From: Terriglobia bacterium
GTDB lineage: Bacteria; Acidobacteriota; Terriglobia; Bryobacterales; Bryobacteraceae
Direction: 5' to 3'
Length of the DNA stretch: 64,000 nt
Assembly (NCBI GenBank): GCA_021325235.1
Contig: JAJPHN010000044.1
Location: 1-64,000, forward strand
In this document: positions 42,886 to 50,086 of the stretch, piece after piece
Position numbering within the stretch: position 1 is the first letter of the stretch
How the letters are laid out: every line of letters begins with the position of its first letter
The notes under the pieces: model-generated
What the model was told of the DNA's origin: nothing
What the model saw: the letters and a program-made list of their open reading frames with translations, nothing else
Databases searched by the model: none
Program-made: the position numbers and the translations under genes

Positions 42886-43650
42886 ATGATCGTCGCAACC
42901 TGGAATATCAATTCCATCAATGCTCGTGCGCAACACGTGAAAGAGTGGTTGAATGCGGTTAACCCGGACGTGCTTCTTCTGCAGGAACTGAAGGCGAGCG
43001 AATTTCCGTCCCTGGTTTTTCGCGAGTTCGGGTACGAGAGTGTCGCGGTGACACAGAAGGCTTACAACGGTGTGGCGATCCTGTCGCGCCGCCCCATAGA
43101 AGTCGTGAGCACGGCTCTTGCCGGGGATGACGCCGATGAGCACGCACGTTTTCTCGAAGCCATGATCGACGGGATGCGTGTCGTGAACATCTATCTTCCG
43201 AACGGCAACCCGGTCGGGAGCGAGAAGTTCATTTACAAGATCACATGGATGAACCGGCTGCTGAAACAGATGCAAAGCTGGATCGCAGGGAGCACTCCGA
43301 CACTTGTCGCCGGTGATTATAACGTCATTCCGGAAGACATCGACTGTCATAAGCCGTCTTCGTGGATGCATGACGCCCTGTTCCAGCCCGAGCCGCGCGC
43401 GCTCTACCGCGCATATCTCGAACTCGGCTACATCGACGCGTTTCGTTCGCTGCATCCGGATGAAAAAGGTCAGTTTACCTTCTGGGACTACTTCCGCAAA
43501 GCCTTCGATTACAATCGCGGCATTCGGATCGACCATATTCTGCTTTCGCCTTCGCTTGGTGCGCGTCTTGAGCGCTGCGAAATCGACAGGAGCCCGCGGG
43601 GCAAAGAGAAGCCGTCCGATCACGCCCCCATATTCGTGAAATTGAGCTGA
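42886..43650 (+). CDS. xth: Exodeoxyribonuclease III (AP endonuclease family)
   Basis: A 254-residue EEP-family nuclease with IVATWNINSINARAQHV at the N-terminus, LLLQELKA (catalytic Glu), RVVNIYLPNGNPVGSEKF, LVAGDYNVIPEDIDC (Asp-Asn) and the C-terminal RIDHILLSPSL and SDHAPIFVKL (Asp-His). It cuts at abasic sites and degrades 3' ends. It begins 2 bp after hemB stops. Its last 31 bases overlap, on the opposite strand, the end of the NrfD-like gene. Confidence 0.95.
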   Translation: MIVATWNINSINARAQHVKEWLNAVNPDVLLLQELKASEFPSLVFREFGYESVAVTQKAYNGVAILSRRPIEVVSTALAGDDADEHARFLEAMIDGMRVVNIYLPNGNPVGSEKFIYKITWMNRLLKQMQSWIAGSTPTLVAGDYNVIPEDIDCHKPSSWMHDALFQPEPRALYRAYLELGYIDAFRSLHPDEKGQFTFWDYFRKAFDYNRGIRIDHILLSPSLGARLERCEIDRSPRGKEKPSDHAPIFVKLS

Positions 43651-44672
43651 GCGCGTTGAAGATGAAAGGATGCGCGCGGATCGCGGGCCGAAGCGAGCCC
43701 AGCCTTGTCCACGGCGAAGCGTAATGCGAGCGAGCCAAGCGTTCCCAGAATGCCGGCCGCGAATTTCTTCGCTCGCTTTTTGATTGGCAGCACGGTTACG
43801 AGTAAGCTGGAAGCGGCCAGAACTGCCGATGCGCGCCAGAGAAAACCGCTGAAGCCGCTTCGCAGGGGCCGCGCAACGCGCTCTATCCGCGCGACCTGCT
43901 TCTCCATGGCAAAAGCGAGTGCAATTTCTGCGATCTGTCCCGAGATGCGAAAAGTGCGTGCGACCGCAAACCCCCGCTGATCGCCCACCATTTCGAGGAG
44001 GCAGCCGGCGCTCGCCATCGCGGATGATCCAAACAGGATGGGCAACACACGGCGTGACTCCTGCCATACCGGAACGGCCGTATTCGCAACCAGCACGCCC
44101 GTGTAAGTTGCAAGGCCAAGTCCCGAAAGTCCGGCCGACAGACCGGCCAACTCGAAATCGAAAATGGCAGCGAGCGAAGATGCCGCCCCGACCTTCGACA
44201 GAATCCATGCGCCCACGTTCATCGGCGATGTGGGACGAAACACTCGCAGCATATTGAGAAAGCGCATGGGCCTGCCGAGGTCCGCCACCAGCAGGACTCC
44301 GCTGATGCACGCGCCGGCGAATCCGATCCAGCGGCACTGTCGAACGAGCGCGCGCAGATCGCGATCTGCGAATAGCTGGACCGCCGCACCGAGAGCGAGC
44401 GATGCACCCGTGACCCCGCCGACGTAATAGTAGGTCGGAATAGCCCAATGCCACACCGACTCGTTCAGCAGCGGCCGATCGTAATAGGTGGGATCGATAC
44501 GCGAAGCTTCAGGCAGCGCCTGCCAGCGCTCGGCCATCTCTGCAATATGTTCGTCGTGGGCACCGCGCGACCTCTGCTGTGCTCCCTCCCCGAGCAACTC
44601 GCCGATGTCGCGATCAATATCGCGCCCATCCGTGACAACAGGTTCCACCGAATCTCTATATCGAACAGCCAT
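43620..44672 (-). CDS. NrfD/PsrC-like membrane subunit of formate dehydrogenase
   Basis: A 350-residue polytopic protein with about eight helices: HWAIPTYYYVGGVTGASLAL, IGFAGACISGVLLVADLGRP (the DLGRP motif after TM2 is typical of NrfD), FLNMLRVFRPTSPMNVGAW and GLATYTGVLVANTAVPVW. NrfD subunits anchor molybdenum oxidoreductases and pass electrons to quinone without haem. The ATG 44672 comes 1 bp after the FdhB stop. The C-terminus beyond the last helix (about 30 residues) is encoded over the end of the converging xth gene. Confidence 0.9.
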   Translation of the reverse strand: MAVRYRDSVEPVVTDGRDIDRDIGELLGEGAQQRSRGAHDEHIAEMAERWQALPEASRIDPTYYDRPLLNESVWHWAIPTYYYVGGVTGASLALGAAVQLFADRDLRALVRQCRWIGFAGACISGVLLVADLGRPMRFLNMLRVFRPTSPMNVGAWILSKVGAASSLAAIFDFELAGLSAGLSGLGLATYTGVLVANTAVPVWQESRRVLPILFGSSAMASAGCLLEMVGDQRGFAVARTFRISGQIAEIALAFAMEKQVARIERVARPLRSGFSGFLWRASAVLAASSLLVTVLPIKKRAKKFAAGILGTLGSLALRFAVDKAGLASARDPRASFHLQRAQLNFTNMGA

Positions 44673-44673
44673 T

Positions 44674-45471
44674 TCAGCTTGCTCTCTCGCGGCCGCCCAG
44701 CAGAGCCGAGCCAATCGCGGCCAGAGCCAGCCCGAGCACTCCTACCGCCATCGAACCCCATGCAGCTTTCGCCGGTTTGGTCGGCACCGTTGGGTTCGGC
44801 GGCAGGTTGTACATCTCCGGTTTATCCACCAGCAGGAAAAAGGCGTTCAAGCCCTCAGTTCCCGGCTGCTGCGCCGCGTTCGCGCCGTATAGATATGCAC
44901 TGTTTAAGCCTTGCTCATGCAACTTCTCGACGCGCTTCTCAGCCCGTTCGCGCAACTCTGCTATTTCTCCGAACTGAATCGATTCCGTTGGGCAGGATTT
45001 GGCGCAGGCCGGCTGCATATCCGCGCGCAGACGGTCGTAGCAGAGCGTGCATTTCCAGGCGCGTCCATCTTCTTCACGACGATCGATGACGCCGAAGGGA
45101 CAATTCACGATGCAGTATCCGCAGCCGTTGCAGACATCGGGTTGCACGTAGACCGATCCGTACTCAGTCCGAATGATCGCGCCCGTCGGACAGCTTTCGA
45201 GACACCCCGCGCGCGCACAGTGTTTGCAGACGTCGGACGAAAACAGCCAGGAGAACGCGCCGTCGTTACCCGGTTTCATCGGAACGGGCCGCTCGACAAA
45301 CGCGACGTGACGCCAGGTGGATGCACCGAGATGAACCGTGTTGTCATACGACATGCCCGTGAACAGAAAGCCATCGTCGGGCAGCTGATTCCATTGCTTG
45401 CAGGCCACCTCGCAAGCCTTACAGCCAATGCAAAGCGTGGTGTCGGTGAAGAATCCTTTCTGCGCAGCCAC
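44674..45471 (-). CDS. fdhB: Formate dehydrogenase iron-sulfur (beta) subunit
   Basis: A 265-residue ferredoxin-type subunit with four 4Fe-4S motifs: CIGCKACEVACKQW, CKHCARAGCLESCPTGAI, CNGCGYCIVNCPFGVI, and CTLCYDR followed by ACAKSCPTESI. The C-terminus has one membrane helix, AAWGSMAVGVLGLALAAIGS, as in FdnH/FdoH. I place the start at GTG 45471, 1 bp after the alpha-subunit TAA, because AAGGAAGG sits 10-17 bases before it and the neighbouring NrfD gene has the same 1-bp spacing; an ATG at 45540 would overlap the alpha gene. It carries electrons from the Mo/W site to the membrane subunit. Confidence 0.92.
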   Translation of the reverse strand: MAAQKGFFTDTTLCIGCKACEVACKQWNQLPDDGFLFTGMSYDNTVHLGASTWRHVAFVERPVPMKPGNDGAFSWLFSSDVCKHCARAGCLESCPTGAIIRTEYGSVYVQPDVCNGCGYCIVNCPFGVIDRREEDGRAWKCTLCYDRLRADMQPACAKSCPTESIQFGEIAELRERAEKRVEKLHEQGLNSAYLYGANAAQQPGTEGLNAFFLLVDKPEMYNLPPNPTVPTKPAKAAWGSMAVGVLGLALAAIGSALLGGRERAS

Positions 45472-45472
45472 T

Positions 45473-48400
45473 TTAAACGTTGCCTTCCTTAGCTTCGAAT
45501 GCCTTGTAGCCGTGCTTGGTCTCCGGCTTGTTCTGGGCACGCGGCAGATCGCGATCCTTCTCGCGCGAGGGCAGCTTCTTCAGCTTGTAATGAGCTTTGC
45601 TGAGACGGCCCGGCTCAATCATCGCGGTAAAGGCCTTCGACTCCTGGATCGCAACATTCGGATCTGCGACGAAACCGATCAGATCGTTCGCCGCATCCCC
45701 GCGCACCAAGCCTTTCGTCGACCAGTGATAGGGGAGCCCGATCTGATGGAAAATTCGGCCCCGCATTCGTAGTGGCCGTATGCGCTCGGTCACGAGCACG
45801 CGCGCTTCGATTTCGCCTCGCATAGTGCGAATCGTTGCCCAGCCGCCGTTCTTCAAATTGCGCTCCATTGCCAGCTCCGGCGAGACCTCACAGAACATTT
45901 CGGGCTGTAACTCCGATAGCCATGAGAGCCAGCGCGACATCCCGCCTGCCGTATGATGCTCGGTGAGCCGGTACGTTGTCAACAGATACGGAAAGCGCGG
46001 ATCATCGAAGGGCTGGTGATACGGATTATCTTTGCGCAGCCATTCCATGCGTTCCGGATTGCATTGCTGCGGATAGAGCGGATTCGGCATTACCGATTCC
46101 TGCGGCTCATAATGCGTCGGTAGCGGACCATCCTGCAAGCCCGTCGGAGCAAAGATCCAGGCCTTTCCATCCGCCTGCATGACAAACGGATCGACTCCCG
46201 AAATCGTATCCTTTCCGCGTGCTTCCCTCGATGGACGATAGGAAGGCGGCCGCTCCACGATGAAGTCCGGGATATCGTAACCTTCCCAGCGCTGCTTCTG
46301 CGCATCCCACCAGACAAGCTTTTTGCGCTCCGACCATGGCCGGCCATCGGGATCGGCGGAGGCGCGGTTGTATAGAACACGGCGGTTGTGCGGCCACGCC
46401 CAGCCCCACTCCGGCGCTACCCAGTTCTGCTCCCAATGCGGTTTCCGCCGCGCCGCCTGATTCTCTCCATTCCGGTAAGCCCCCGAATAGATCCAGCAAC
46501 CGCAAGCGGTGGAACCGTCGTCCTTGAGCGAAGTGAAGCCTTCGACGGGCTTGCCGTCCGCCACGGTGTATCCGTTTATCTCATGCAGGACAGCCTCCGC
46601 ACTCGGCTCATTCAATATGCCTTCCGTCGGATAATCCCAGGTCAGATCCCGAATGGGCCAGTTGCGCGGCTGATCGTACTCATTCCGGTAAAGATTCTTA
46701 AGCCGTTGACCGAGTTTGAAAATGAAATCCAACTCGCTGCGGGTATCGCCCTTTGGCTCGATCGCTTTGTGGTGCCACTGCAATAGGCGCTGGGTGTTGG
46801 TGAAGCTGCCGTCCTTTTCCGTATGGGCGGCAGCCGGGAAGAAGAACACCTCGGTTGGAATCTCTTCCGGTTTCACCTCGCCGCGCACAACCTCAGGCGC
46901 ATCCCGCCAGAAATCGGCTGTTTCGGTGACCTGAAAATCGCGCACGACCAGCCAATCGAGCGCTCGCAGACCCTTCCTCTGCAACGCGCCATTCATCGAG
47001 CCGACACTCGGGTTCTCGCCCATGACGAAATAACCCTTCACCGAACCGTCCACCATGTCGACTACGGTGTTCATGTGCGAGTGATCGCCCGTTAGTGTCG
47101 GGAGATAGTCGTAGCACCAGTCGTTCTCTTCAGTCGCAGCCTCTCCGAACCAGGCCTTCATCAGCGAGATGAAGTATTTCCGATATTCTCCCCACCAGCC
47201 CGACGGCGATTCGTTGAGCTTCAGATACGTTTCGAGATCCACATCATGCTGTGCTTTGGGCATCGGCAGATAGCCAGGAAGGATGTTGTAGAGTGTCGGA
47301 ATGTCGGTCGATCCCTGAATCGACGCGTGACCGCGCAGCGCCAGGATTCCGCCGCCCGGCCGTCCCATGTTGCCGAGCAGCGACTGCACAATTGCCGCAG
47401 CGCGGATGAACTGGACACCCGTCGAGTGCTGTGTCCAGCCCACTGCATACACAAACGCTCCGGTGCGCTCGCGCCCGGAATTTTTGCAAAGCGTGTCCGC
47501 GACTCTGAGAAACAGCTCTTTCGAAATACCGCAGGCCTCTTCCACCATCTCCGGCGTATAGCGCGCATAGTGGCGCTTCAGGATCTGGAAGACACAGCGC
47601 GGATGCTGCAGCGTGGGATCTGTCTTCTCCGCCTGAATGGGCTGCCGCTGGATGGATTCGGCTTTCTTGCCTGCTTCCGATTCGCGCGCGCCACCAGCCG
47701 GCTCGGGATTTACGCCTTCGTACATCCAGGTACGCGTGTTGTACTGGCCTTTCTTTTCGTCCCAGCCGCTAAAGAATCCTTCGAGCTCTTCCGTGTCCCT
47801 GAAATCTTCGGTGATGATTGCCGCCGCGTTCGTATAGGTGACGACGTATTCCCTGAAATACTGCTCGGTCTCCAGGATGTGCCGGATGATTCCACCGAGG
47901 AAGACGATGTCGGAACCGGCACGTATCGGCACGTGCAGATTCGCAACCGCGCTGGTCCGTGTAAATCGCGGATCCACGTGGATGACCGTCGCGCCCCGCT
48001 CCCTCGCCTGCATCACCCAGCGAAACGCCACCGGATGGCACTCCGCCATGTTGGAGCCTTGAATCACAATCACATCAGAGTTGACGAGGTCACCGGGAAA
48101 ATCGGTGGCGCCGCCGCGTCCGAACGAGGTCCCCAAACTGGGAACCGTTGAAGAGTGTCAAATACGGGCCTGATTTTCTATCTGAACAATCCCCAGTGCC
48201 GTGAAGAGCTTCTTGATGAGATAGTTCTCTTCGTTGTCGAGCGTCGCTCCGCCCAGGTGAGCCATCGACATCGTGCGCCGGAGCGGCTTGCCCTCTTCGT
48301 CCTTGTCTTCCCAATGCTCGTCGCGCGCCTTCTTCATGCGTTCGGCCACCATGTCCATAGCGCGCTCGAGCGGAATCTTTTCCCACTCGGTGCCATACGG

Positions 48401-48706
48401 ACGCCTGTACAGAACATCGCTCACCCGGTGCGAGCCCGTTACGAGCTGAAAGGTCGCCGCGCCCTTGGGACAAAGGCATCCATGTGAGATCGGGGAGCGA
48501 GGATCACCTTCGAGATCGATGATCTTCCCGTTTTTCAGATAAACAAGCTGGCCACAACCGACCGCGCAATACGGGCAGACCGATGCGATGACCCGATCTG
48601 CTTTCGTGGTCCTCGCTTCGAGTTGTTCCGTTCGCTCCGAAGCGGCTGTACTTCCGAGACCGAGCACGTCGCCATTCTTCAACTGTTTGAGAACCGGCCA
48701 TTCCAT
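45473..48706 (-). CDS. fdhA: Formate dehydrogenase alpha subunit, selenocysteine-containing (UGA at 48158-48160)
   Basis: Reading the in-frame TGA at 48158-48160 as selenocysteine gives one 1077-residue molybdopterin formate dehydrogenase. The N-terminal part holds the 4Fe-4S site (Cys44, 47, 51, 77 in VCPYCAVGCG and GCLCPKG). Sec183 follows IENQARI and precedes HSSTVPSLGTSFGRG, exactly where FdnG and FdoG have Sec before a His. Downstream are the pterin domains, GDLVNSDVIVIQGSNMAECH, GWTQHSTGVQFIRAAAIVQ and the C-terminal MopD domain (VTERIRPLRMRGRIFHQIGL). No twin-arginine signal is present, so the catalytic side may be cytoplasmic, or the start lies elsewhere. A SECIS-like hairpin lies just past the UGA. 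Confidence 0.92.
48128..48160 (-). promoter_or_regulatory. UGA selenocysteine codon with SECIS-like hairpin
   Basis: After the TGA (48160-48158) and an 11-base spacer, GGTTCCC-AGTTT-GGGGACC (48146-48128) forms a 7-bp stem (one U-G pair) with a 5-base loop. Bacterial SECIS elements have a short stem-loop about 11 bases after UGA, recognised by SelB, so both spacing and size fit. SelA, SelB, SelC and SelD are not in the window and must be elsewhere. Confidence 0.8.
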
Positions 48707-48758: not shown

Positions 48759-49694
48759 CTACTGCGGACCGCTCGCGCCCACGCCGCCGCCCTGCATTCC
48801 AACCAGCACCAATCCGGCAATGACCAGCGAAGTCGCAAGAGCTTTGGTCGCCAGTATCCAGGGGCGGAAGTCCTCGCGGAACCACGCCGGCCGCCAGCGC
48901 GTAATTGCATACGCGCCCAGGAAGACGATCACATAGCGAAGTCCGGAGATCGACTCCACTAGCGCCGGATTCGCGCGGCTCACTGCAAACACGACCAGAA
49001 ACGAGCCGACTCCGGCGATAAACCGGTTGATGAAGTACTGCGTTTTGCTCCGCGGCTCATCGGAACCGGAGTTGCGAACGATCTGACGCCGCCACGACGG
49101 GGGAACCAGCAGCGCCGTCGCACTCAGAAACGTCCCGATCGTGAAAAACACGTAACCGCTCACAAAGTTTGTCTGGTTGAAGACAGTCTTCTGGAGCACG
49201 TTCGTCATCCCAAAAGCCGCCGAAGCGATCAGGATTTTAGGCAGCATCTTGCGCAGGGAGCGCTTATCCGCGAAGAACATCACGAAACCGCCCGCGGTCA
49301 GAATTGAGAATCCCAGCAGCTGTCCGCCCAACGGCTTTCTCAGCAGCGGTATGCCGATGAGCGCGGTCGCCACCGGCGCAAAGCCTCCGATGGCGGCTAC
49401 TTCATCGGAGGCCTCGCCTGCCTTCAACGCCCAGTAGTAGAAGAAGGAAGCAACCAGATCGAGCGTGCCGGCAGCAAATGCGAGGCTCGCGACGCGGATG
49501 CCGGGCCAGCGGCAGCCGAAGGGAATGAGCACCAGACCAAACACGCTGATCGCTCCCAGCCAGAAAACGTACGAGACAAGATTCTGCGTGCCGCGCCTTT
49601 GCAGCAGCACTTTGTCCCAGACCAATGAGATTCCGATAAGTCCGTGCGCGACGATTGCAATCAGAATACCGTTCAGCGCAAATGCCGGGGTCAC
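48759..49694 (-). CDS. EamA/DMT-type membrane transporter
   Basis: A 311-residue protein with about ten membrane helices in two repeats: GILIAIVAHGLIGISLVWDK, SYVFWLGAISVFGLVLIPFG, VATALIGIPLLRKPLGGQL, FSILTAGGFVMFFADKRS and ILATKALATSLVIAGLVLVG. The (EamA)-type pattern fits drug/metabolite transporters; the substrate is unknown. The start is GTG at 49694, overlapping the upstream stop (GTGA), so it is coupled to the VKOR-like gene. It lies 52 bp before the formate dehydrogenase genes. Confidence 0.82.
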   Translation of the reverse strand: MTPAFALNGILIAIVAHGLIGISLVWDKVLLQRRGTQNLVSYVFWLGAISVFGLVLIPFGCRWPGIRVASLAFAAGTLDLVASFFYYWALKAGEASDEVAAIGGFAPVATALIGIPLLRKPLGGQLLGFSILTAGGFVMFFADKRSLRKMLPKILIASAAFGMTNVLQKTVFNQTNFVSGYVFFTIGTFLSATALLVPPSWRRQIVRNSGSDEPRSKTQYFINRFIAGVGSFLVVFAVSRANPALVESISGLRYVIVFLGAYAITRWRPAWFREDFRPWILATKALATSLVIAGLVLVGMQGGGVGASGPQ

Positions 49695-50086
49695 GGCCGA
49701 GTACGTGCCGCGAGGACGAGCGATACAACCGAAGCCGTTCCTGCCGCCAGCGAATAGATGGATAGTGCGTGTAGCCGGCGCCATCCAAAAATGCCGAAGC
49801 CCGCTGCCACCAGAGTGTCGAGAGCGGTTTTGGCAAACGTGAGGTGGCGCGCTCCGAGTTCGGCAAGTGCTGCTGTTGTGCCGTAGCTTGCCATCCCCAG
49901 AAGTCCATCGGGAACGCCGAAGAGGGCATACGCCTCGCGGGAACCATGCACTGTATCAGCGTCGAAAACCCCTCGTTTCGGTCCGGGCAAATGCTCGATC
50001 GCGCCAAGCTGGAAGGCCGTTACCATCCCGAGCACACCCACCGAAACAAGCGACAGCACGGCCACCGCGCGATTCGGCTCAGACAT
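49691..50086 (-). CDS. VKOR-like membrane protein lacking catalytic cysteines
   Basis: A 131-residue protein with four hydrophobic helices. YALFGVPDGLLGMASYG (about 53-69) matches the loop/helix of vitamin K epoxide reductase homologues (S.ya..fGiP..llG), and WRRLHALSIYSLAAGTASVV (102-121) aligns with the helix carrying the redox CxxC, here SIYS (Ser109, Ser112). No cysteine occurs anywhere in the protein. VKOR homologues reoxidise DsbA-like thiol oxidases using quinone, which this form cannot do by the usual chemistry. It overlaps the SDR gene by 8 bases and the transporter by 4. Family membership is by eye. Confidence 0.65.
   Translation of the reverse strand: MSEPNRAVAVLSLVSVGVLGMVTAFQLGAIEHLPGPKRGVFDADTVHGSREAYALFGVPDGLLGMASYGTTAALAELGARHLTFAKTALDTLVAAGFGIFGWRRLHALSIYSLAAGTASVVSLVLAARTRP

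Follow-up and report, generated by a model that had tools for sequence, protein, structure and literature searches.

An in-frame TGA codon in a formate dehydrogenase gene of a Terriglobia bacterium supports a selenoprotein of the NF041513 family

The formate dehydrogenase (FDH) gene of this locus raises a simple question: does the TGA at its codon 183 terminate translation, or is it read as selenocysteine? The best explanation is that the gene encodes a selenocysteine-containing FDH core of the NF041513 family, a reading to which we assign a probability of about 0.95. The same reading was proposed in an earlier note made from the sequence, and it is supported because four lines of evidence agree: the alignment with the solved FDH chain 1h0h_A, the codon found in the best 80 of 447 homologous loci, the covariation of a downstream stem and the presence of a set of sel genes. 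Such an enzyme is ordinary, a further representative of an already described family of selenocysteine FDHs. In PMC1794560, FdhA and SelD rank as the bacterial selenoproteins found most widely, and the paper tabulated selenoproteins of Acidobacteria already in 2006. The features of the locus are collected in Table 1, with positions counted in the window, that is, the whole stretch of 64,000 nucleotides that was analysed.

Table 1. Features of the FDH locus in the window.
Feature	Position	Strand	Evidence
Alpha subunit (1077 aa) of a selenocysteine-containing formate dehydrogenase of the NF041513 family	45473..48706	-	Read-through frame with a single TGA; NF041513.1; TIGR01553; Pfam domains
TGA within the frame at codon 183, predicted selenocysteine codon	48158..48160	-	Alignment with residue X of 1h0h_A; codon in the best 80 of 447 loci
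Hairpin of the bacterial SECIS type; 48146-48139 pairs with 48135-48128 around a loop at 48138-48136	48128..48146	-	Covariation across homologues
FdhB-like ferredoxin subunit	44674..45471	-	TIGR01582, 194 bits (below the cut-off of 334.7); PF13247, 80.8 bits; junction sequence; Cys positions and hydropathy
NrfD-type membrane anchor	43620..44537	-	PF14589 at 48.6 bits and PF03916 at 45.3 bits, each exceeding its cut-off; ATG start proposed, mechanical ORF start 44714
EamA-like transporter gene, upstream of FDH	48759..49784	-	PF00892, 33.2 bits (cut-off 28.2)

Reading frame and relatives of known structure

The gene is a single frame of 1077 codons, and the TGA is its only interruption. Codons 1-182, starting with the ATG at 48706, share this frame with the remainder, which runs to the end of the stop codon at 45473. 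Read-through gives a product of 1077 residues with the segment IENQARI-U-HSSTVPSLG around the TGA. An in-frame TAA, read by eye, lies three codons 5' of the ATG. The earlier note had joined two same-frame open reading frames across the TGA in exactly this residue context; its coordinates are right, the read-through translation reproduces the context, and the strand, which it did not state, is the minus strand.

In a profile search the protein matches NCBIfam NF041513.1 with 1845.6 bits (cut-off 1400) over residues 2-1044, which is nearly its full length, and TIGR01553, the model of the FDH-N alpha subunit, with 1008.8 bits (cut-off 814.2). Three Pfam molybdopterin oxidoreductase domains are also present. 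NF041513 is named formate_DH_Act, 'formate dehydrogenase'; our guess is that 'Act' stands for actinobacteria. The earlier note had guessed that automatic annotation would likely yield two genes or a pseudogene; NCBI already has this family model for such a gene. The relatives among the best 80 of 447 loci resemble the protein described here in the site of selenocysteine, in having FdhB and NrfD genes as neighbours and in lacking a Tat motif, and nothing of substance was found that sets it apart from the family. No second FDH gene of this kind was found in the assembly, where the next match spans only 35-281 with 32% identity.

The top solved relatives are 1h0h (743.1 bits for 1h0h_A) and E. 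coli 1kqf (732.5 bits), and the best of them include the FDH alpha subunits of 1h0h and the 8cm4/6sdr series. In the one alignment displayed, the residue of codon 183 is placed opposite X, the nonstandard residue in FDH chain 1h0h_A. Further close solved chains carry the name selenocysteine-containing FDH. E. coli fdnG and fdhF also have a TGA, and the stretches after it, GGTAGCAAGTCTTGCTCC and GGTTGCAGGTCTGCACC, are comparable; in fdnG it stands before a His at the same place. Residue X and the matching context of the two E. coli genes bear out the earlier proposal that the TGA occupies the selenocysteine site of known FDHs.

Selenium machinery and FdhD in the assembly

The 5.03 Mb assembly (95.72% complete and 4.77% contaminated by the bin figures) contains selA (501.9 bits, cut-off 267.9), selB (377.2 bits, cut-off 242.25), selD (362 bits, cut-off 125) and the tRNA-Sec gene selC (73.1 bits, cut-off 47). 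The earlier note had made its reading depend on these four genes, and all are present, each over its cut-off; matches below the cut-offs are unspecific, since several of the sel searches also match in all 14 control genomes. ARAGORN calls a tRNA-Sec with anticodon TCA, and the predicted fold has an acceptor stem of 8 bp. Because selB, selC and selD lie on contigs other than that of the window, selA lies on the same contig about 150 kb from the FDH gene and the bin is 4.77% contaminated, it is probable, though short of proof, that all sel genes belong to the organism that carries the FDH.

The assembly also has a second copy each of selB and selD, diverged from the first. The second selB is cut by the end of a 9.7 kb contig and the second selD lies on a 15 kb contig; they show 59% and 78% protein identity to the main copies, and several of their neighbour genes, with ORFs judged by eye, are the same as those of the main copies. 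A duplicated selenocysteine system with two selB and two selD genes was set aside on these identities and the similar neighbours. More likely, the second copies lie on contigs that a related species contributed to the bin.

In a sample of 150 genomes from the order, 65 have an FDH match with an E value no higher than 1e-100. With an E value no higher than 1e-60, selA is found in 59 of these 65 and in 67 of the other 85 (Fisher p 0.07). It is detected in 14 of the 17 order-sample genomes with a close FDH homologue and undetected in the other 3. This co-occurrence is weakly consistent with the selenocysteine reading.

FdhD is the sulfurtransferase on which the activity of FDH depends in E. coli. 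It was not found in the assembly with the Pfam profile PF02634, which matches in 8 of 14 control genomes, nor with a protein query from a relative of the same genus, a search without its own positive control. PF02634 also leaves FdhD undetected in 33 of the 65 FDH-bearing genomes of the order, at least four of them listed as 98-99% complete. These absences would suit a selenoprotein that is made but is inactive or has another role, FdhD being missing. We consider this unlikely, since FdhD is present in all four sampled genomes of the same genus and is commoner in FDH-bearing genomes of the order than in the others (32/65 versus 21/85; Fisher p 0.003, uncorrected for relatedness). It is detected in 11 of the 17 order-sample genomes with a close FDH homologue. 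An antiporter-like gene, so judged by eye, stands near fdhD in two genomes of the genus and has only a 31% identical match in this assembly, which fits, weakly, a stretch missing from the assembly. The absence of FdhD here is likely an assembly gap. Slightly less probable even than an inactive or repurposed enzyme is the proposal that bis-MGD matures without FdhD in this FDH family and in roughly half of the order's genomes with an FDH, and that the cytoplasm-facing, NrfD-anchored complex couples formate oxidation to proton movement or runs as a CO2 reductase. A lack of FdhD would matter only if it holds in complete genomes.

The selenocysteine codon and the downstream stem among relatives

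Relatives in the genome collection comprise 447 loci, and the best 80 were retained for the counts of codon, hairpin and neighbours. The codon matching 183 is readable in all 80; it is TGA in 76, TAG in 2 and TGC in 2. Both TAG loci, from Blastococcus tunisiensis and Geodermatophilus sp. TF02-6, retain the hairpin, and they support the selenocysteine rule because PMC5330540 reports, for Geodermatophilaceae, a tRNA-Sec whose anticodon is CUA. The TGC loci, from Actinacidiphila and Sphaerisporangium, encode Cys versions and have a weakened hairpin. The matched stretch has an additional stop in just 5 of the 80, in 3 of them at its end. The other two frames contain an extra internal in-frame TAG, at codon 463 of the match in locus L069 and codon 640 in locus L074; these may be sequencing errors, pseudogenes or something else.

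The hairpin has 8 possible pairs and starts 11 bases past the TGA. In the single sequence it is not beyond chance. A 44-base piece has a z of -0.85, with 40 of 200 shuffles as good, and in 20000 synonymous resamplings all 8 pairs appear 244 times and an equally stable fold 1243 times. Significance from the single sequence was rejected on these results, and a comparative covariation test was used in its place. The comparison involves 79 selenocysteine rows, made up of the 76 TGA and 2 TAG loci from the best 80 of 447 and the window itself. All 8 pairs are retained in 41 rows and 7 pairs in 38; the outermost pair is poorly kept and the inner 7 are conserved. The innermost C-G pair changes to G-C in 4 rows, and another C-G pair changes to T-G in 8, to T-A in 4 and to G-C in 2, with a mismatch in 1. 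In 30 chosen rows, 99.5% of the cells of the 7-pair stem are paired, with compensatory changes, and the percentage paired, the double-changed cells and the covariation score all exceed every one of 500 shuffles. Other measures are less decisive: the number of pairs with a double change is reached in 144 of 500 shuffles and that of further pair types in 10 of 500. Compared with slid registers, the true register leads in every measure except double-changed cells (8 versus 9 at slide -1). The earlier note had held that a hairpin 11 bases after the TGA fits a SECIS; the hairpin exists, and its support comes from covariation among homologues rather than from the single sequence.

One Cys locus retains 4 of the 8 pairs and the other 6, and in both the loop changes from GT to GC. 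A SECIS model scores them at 20 and 26 bits, versus 43-69 bits for 49 selenocysteine loci outside model building. That contrast is not purely structural or independent, as coding conservation enters the model too and the 49 loci are relatives, of which some are near-identical to the building rows. E. coli fdnG and fdhF are not matched by the model at an E value of 1 or below. The same threshold, applied to the organism's own genome, gives the FDH element as the sole match among the 150 scored of 2180 first-look candidates, and such a scan with an FDH-type model would miss selenoproteins with other SECIS types.

Rfam at gathering thresholds finds no SECIS in the window. Its sole match there is a fluoride riboswitch (RF01734, 63.9 bits) at 1233-1295 on the minus strand, and the ORF directly downstream, 1224-838, resembles, by eye only, the fluoride channel CrcB.

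It is highly improbable that the TGA is a true stop, created by mutation or sequencing error, in a pseudogene or between two separate genes. The failure of the hairpin to exceed chance by itself and the missing FdhD would fit a true stop, but a stop-type codon, TGA or TAG, stands at this position in 78 of the best 80 of 447 loci, where further stops are rare, the stem after it covaries and the full sel set is present; a pseudogene or sequencing error was rejected on the codon conservation. Just as improbable is selenium-free decoding of the TGA by another tRNA or a reassigned code, which has no specific support and is opposed by the tRNA-Sec with anticodon TCA, by SelA, SelB and SelD, by the nonstandard residue of the solved relative at position 183 and by the neighbouring exodeoxyribonuclease III and porphobilinogen synthase, which, translated with the ordinary table 11, align with their families over almost the full length.

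Gene neighbourhood and the proposed complex

The genes for FdhB and the NrfD-type anchor directly follow the FDH gene on the same strand, as the earlier note had claimed for the locus. The proposed GTG start of FdhB is one base past the FDH stop, and the mechanical ORF start is at 45540. FdhB has 16 Cys residues and one strong C-terminal hydrophobic segment. The NrfD-type protein is 61% identical to the product of the downstream gene in one relative (L030) and shows only two hydrophobic segments at a strict hydropathy threshold. Both genes lie downstream in 59 of the 62 testable loci among the best 80 of 447, a locus counting as testable if it includes the end of the gene and more than 2.6 kb beyond it; the three exceptions have neither match. 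In tblastn, none of the best 80 of 447 loci, of which some carry little sequence upstream, matches the EamA-like gene that lies upstream here, and this gene is probably outside the FDH unit.

No twin-arginine pattern occurs in the first 48 residues of the FDH, in agreement with the earlier note, and the same pattern matches the motif of E. coli FdnG used as control. Among 76 homologous N-termini a loose RR pattern appears in 2, which are judged not to be Tat signals. An NrfD partner and no Tat signal is the rule among the relatives of this FDH.

One close comparison is with E. coli FdnGHI (FDH-N, 1kqf), whose alpha subunit is homologous over 37-1031. However, FdnG has a twin-arginine motif whereas the FDH here has no signal, so the Tat signal on the alpha subunit that marks the FDH-N type is absent. 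The E. coli operon ends in fdnI, with a product that we take to be a cytochrome b, and an NrfD-type anchor gene stands here instead. The FDHs of 1h0h and the 8cm4/6sdr series are presumably soluble periplasmic enzymes of Desulfovibrio; they differ in that an NrfD-type subunit gene follows the FDH gene here. A menaquinone-linked FDH is reportedly the topic of a published paper. The literature searched yielded no paper about this gene, nor any about an FDH-NrfD complex in Acidobacteria.

We expect SelB with Sec-tRNA(Sec) to bind the hairpin after the UGA, and selenocysteine would then be inserted at residue 183 as a ligand of the metal, Mo or W, in the bis-MGD site. These roles of SelB, the hairpin and residue 183 are assumed to carry over from the E. 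coli FDHs and from PMC1794560. The alpha subunit would stay on the cytoplasmic side because it has no Tat signal. FdhB may pass electrons through four Fe-S clusters, formed by its 16 Cys residues, to the NrfD-type subunit and then to the quinone pool, in the direction that we infer for the reaction. This cytoplasmic orientation and the quinone acceptor are likely, at odds of perhaps three to one.

For annotation, the gene should stay one selenoprotein of 1077 codons, and formate use in this bacterium would therefore depend on selenium.
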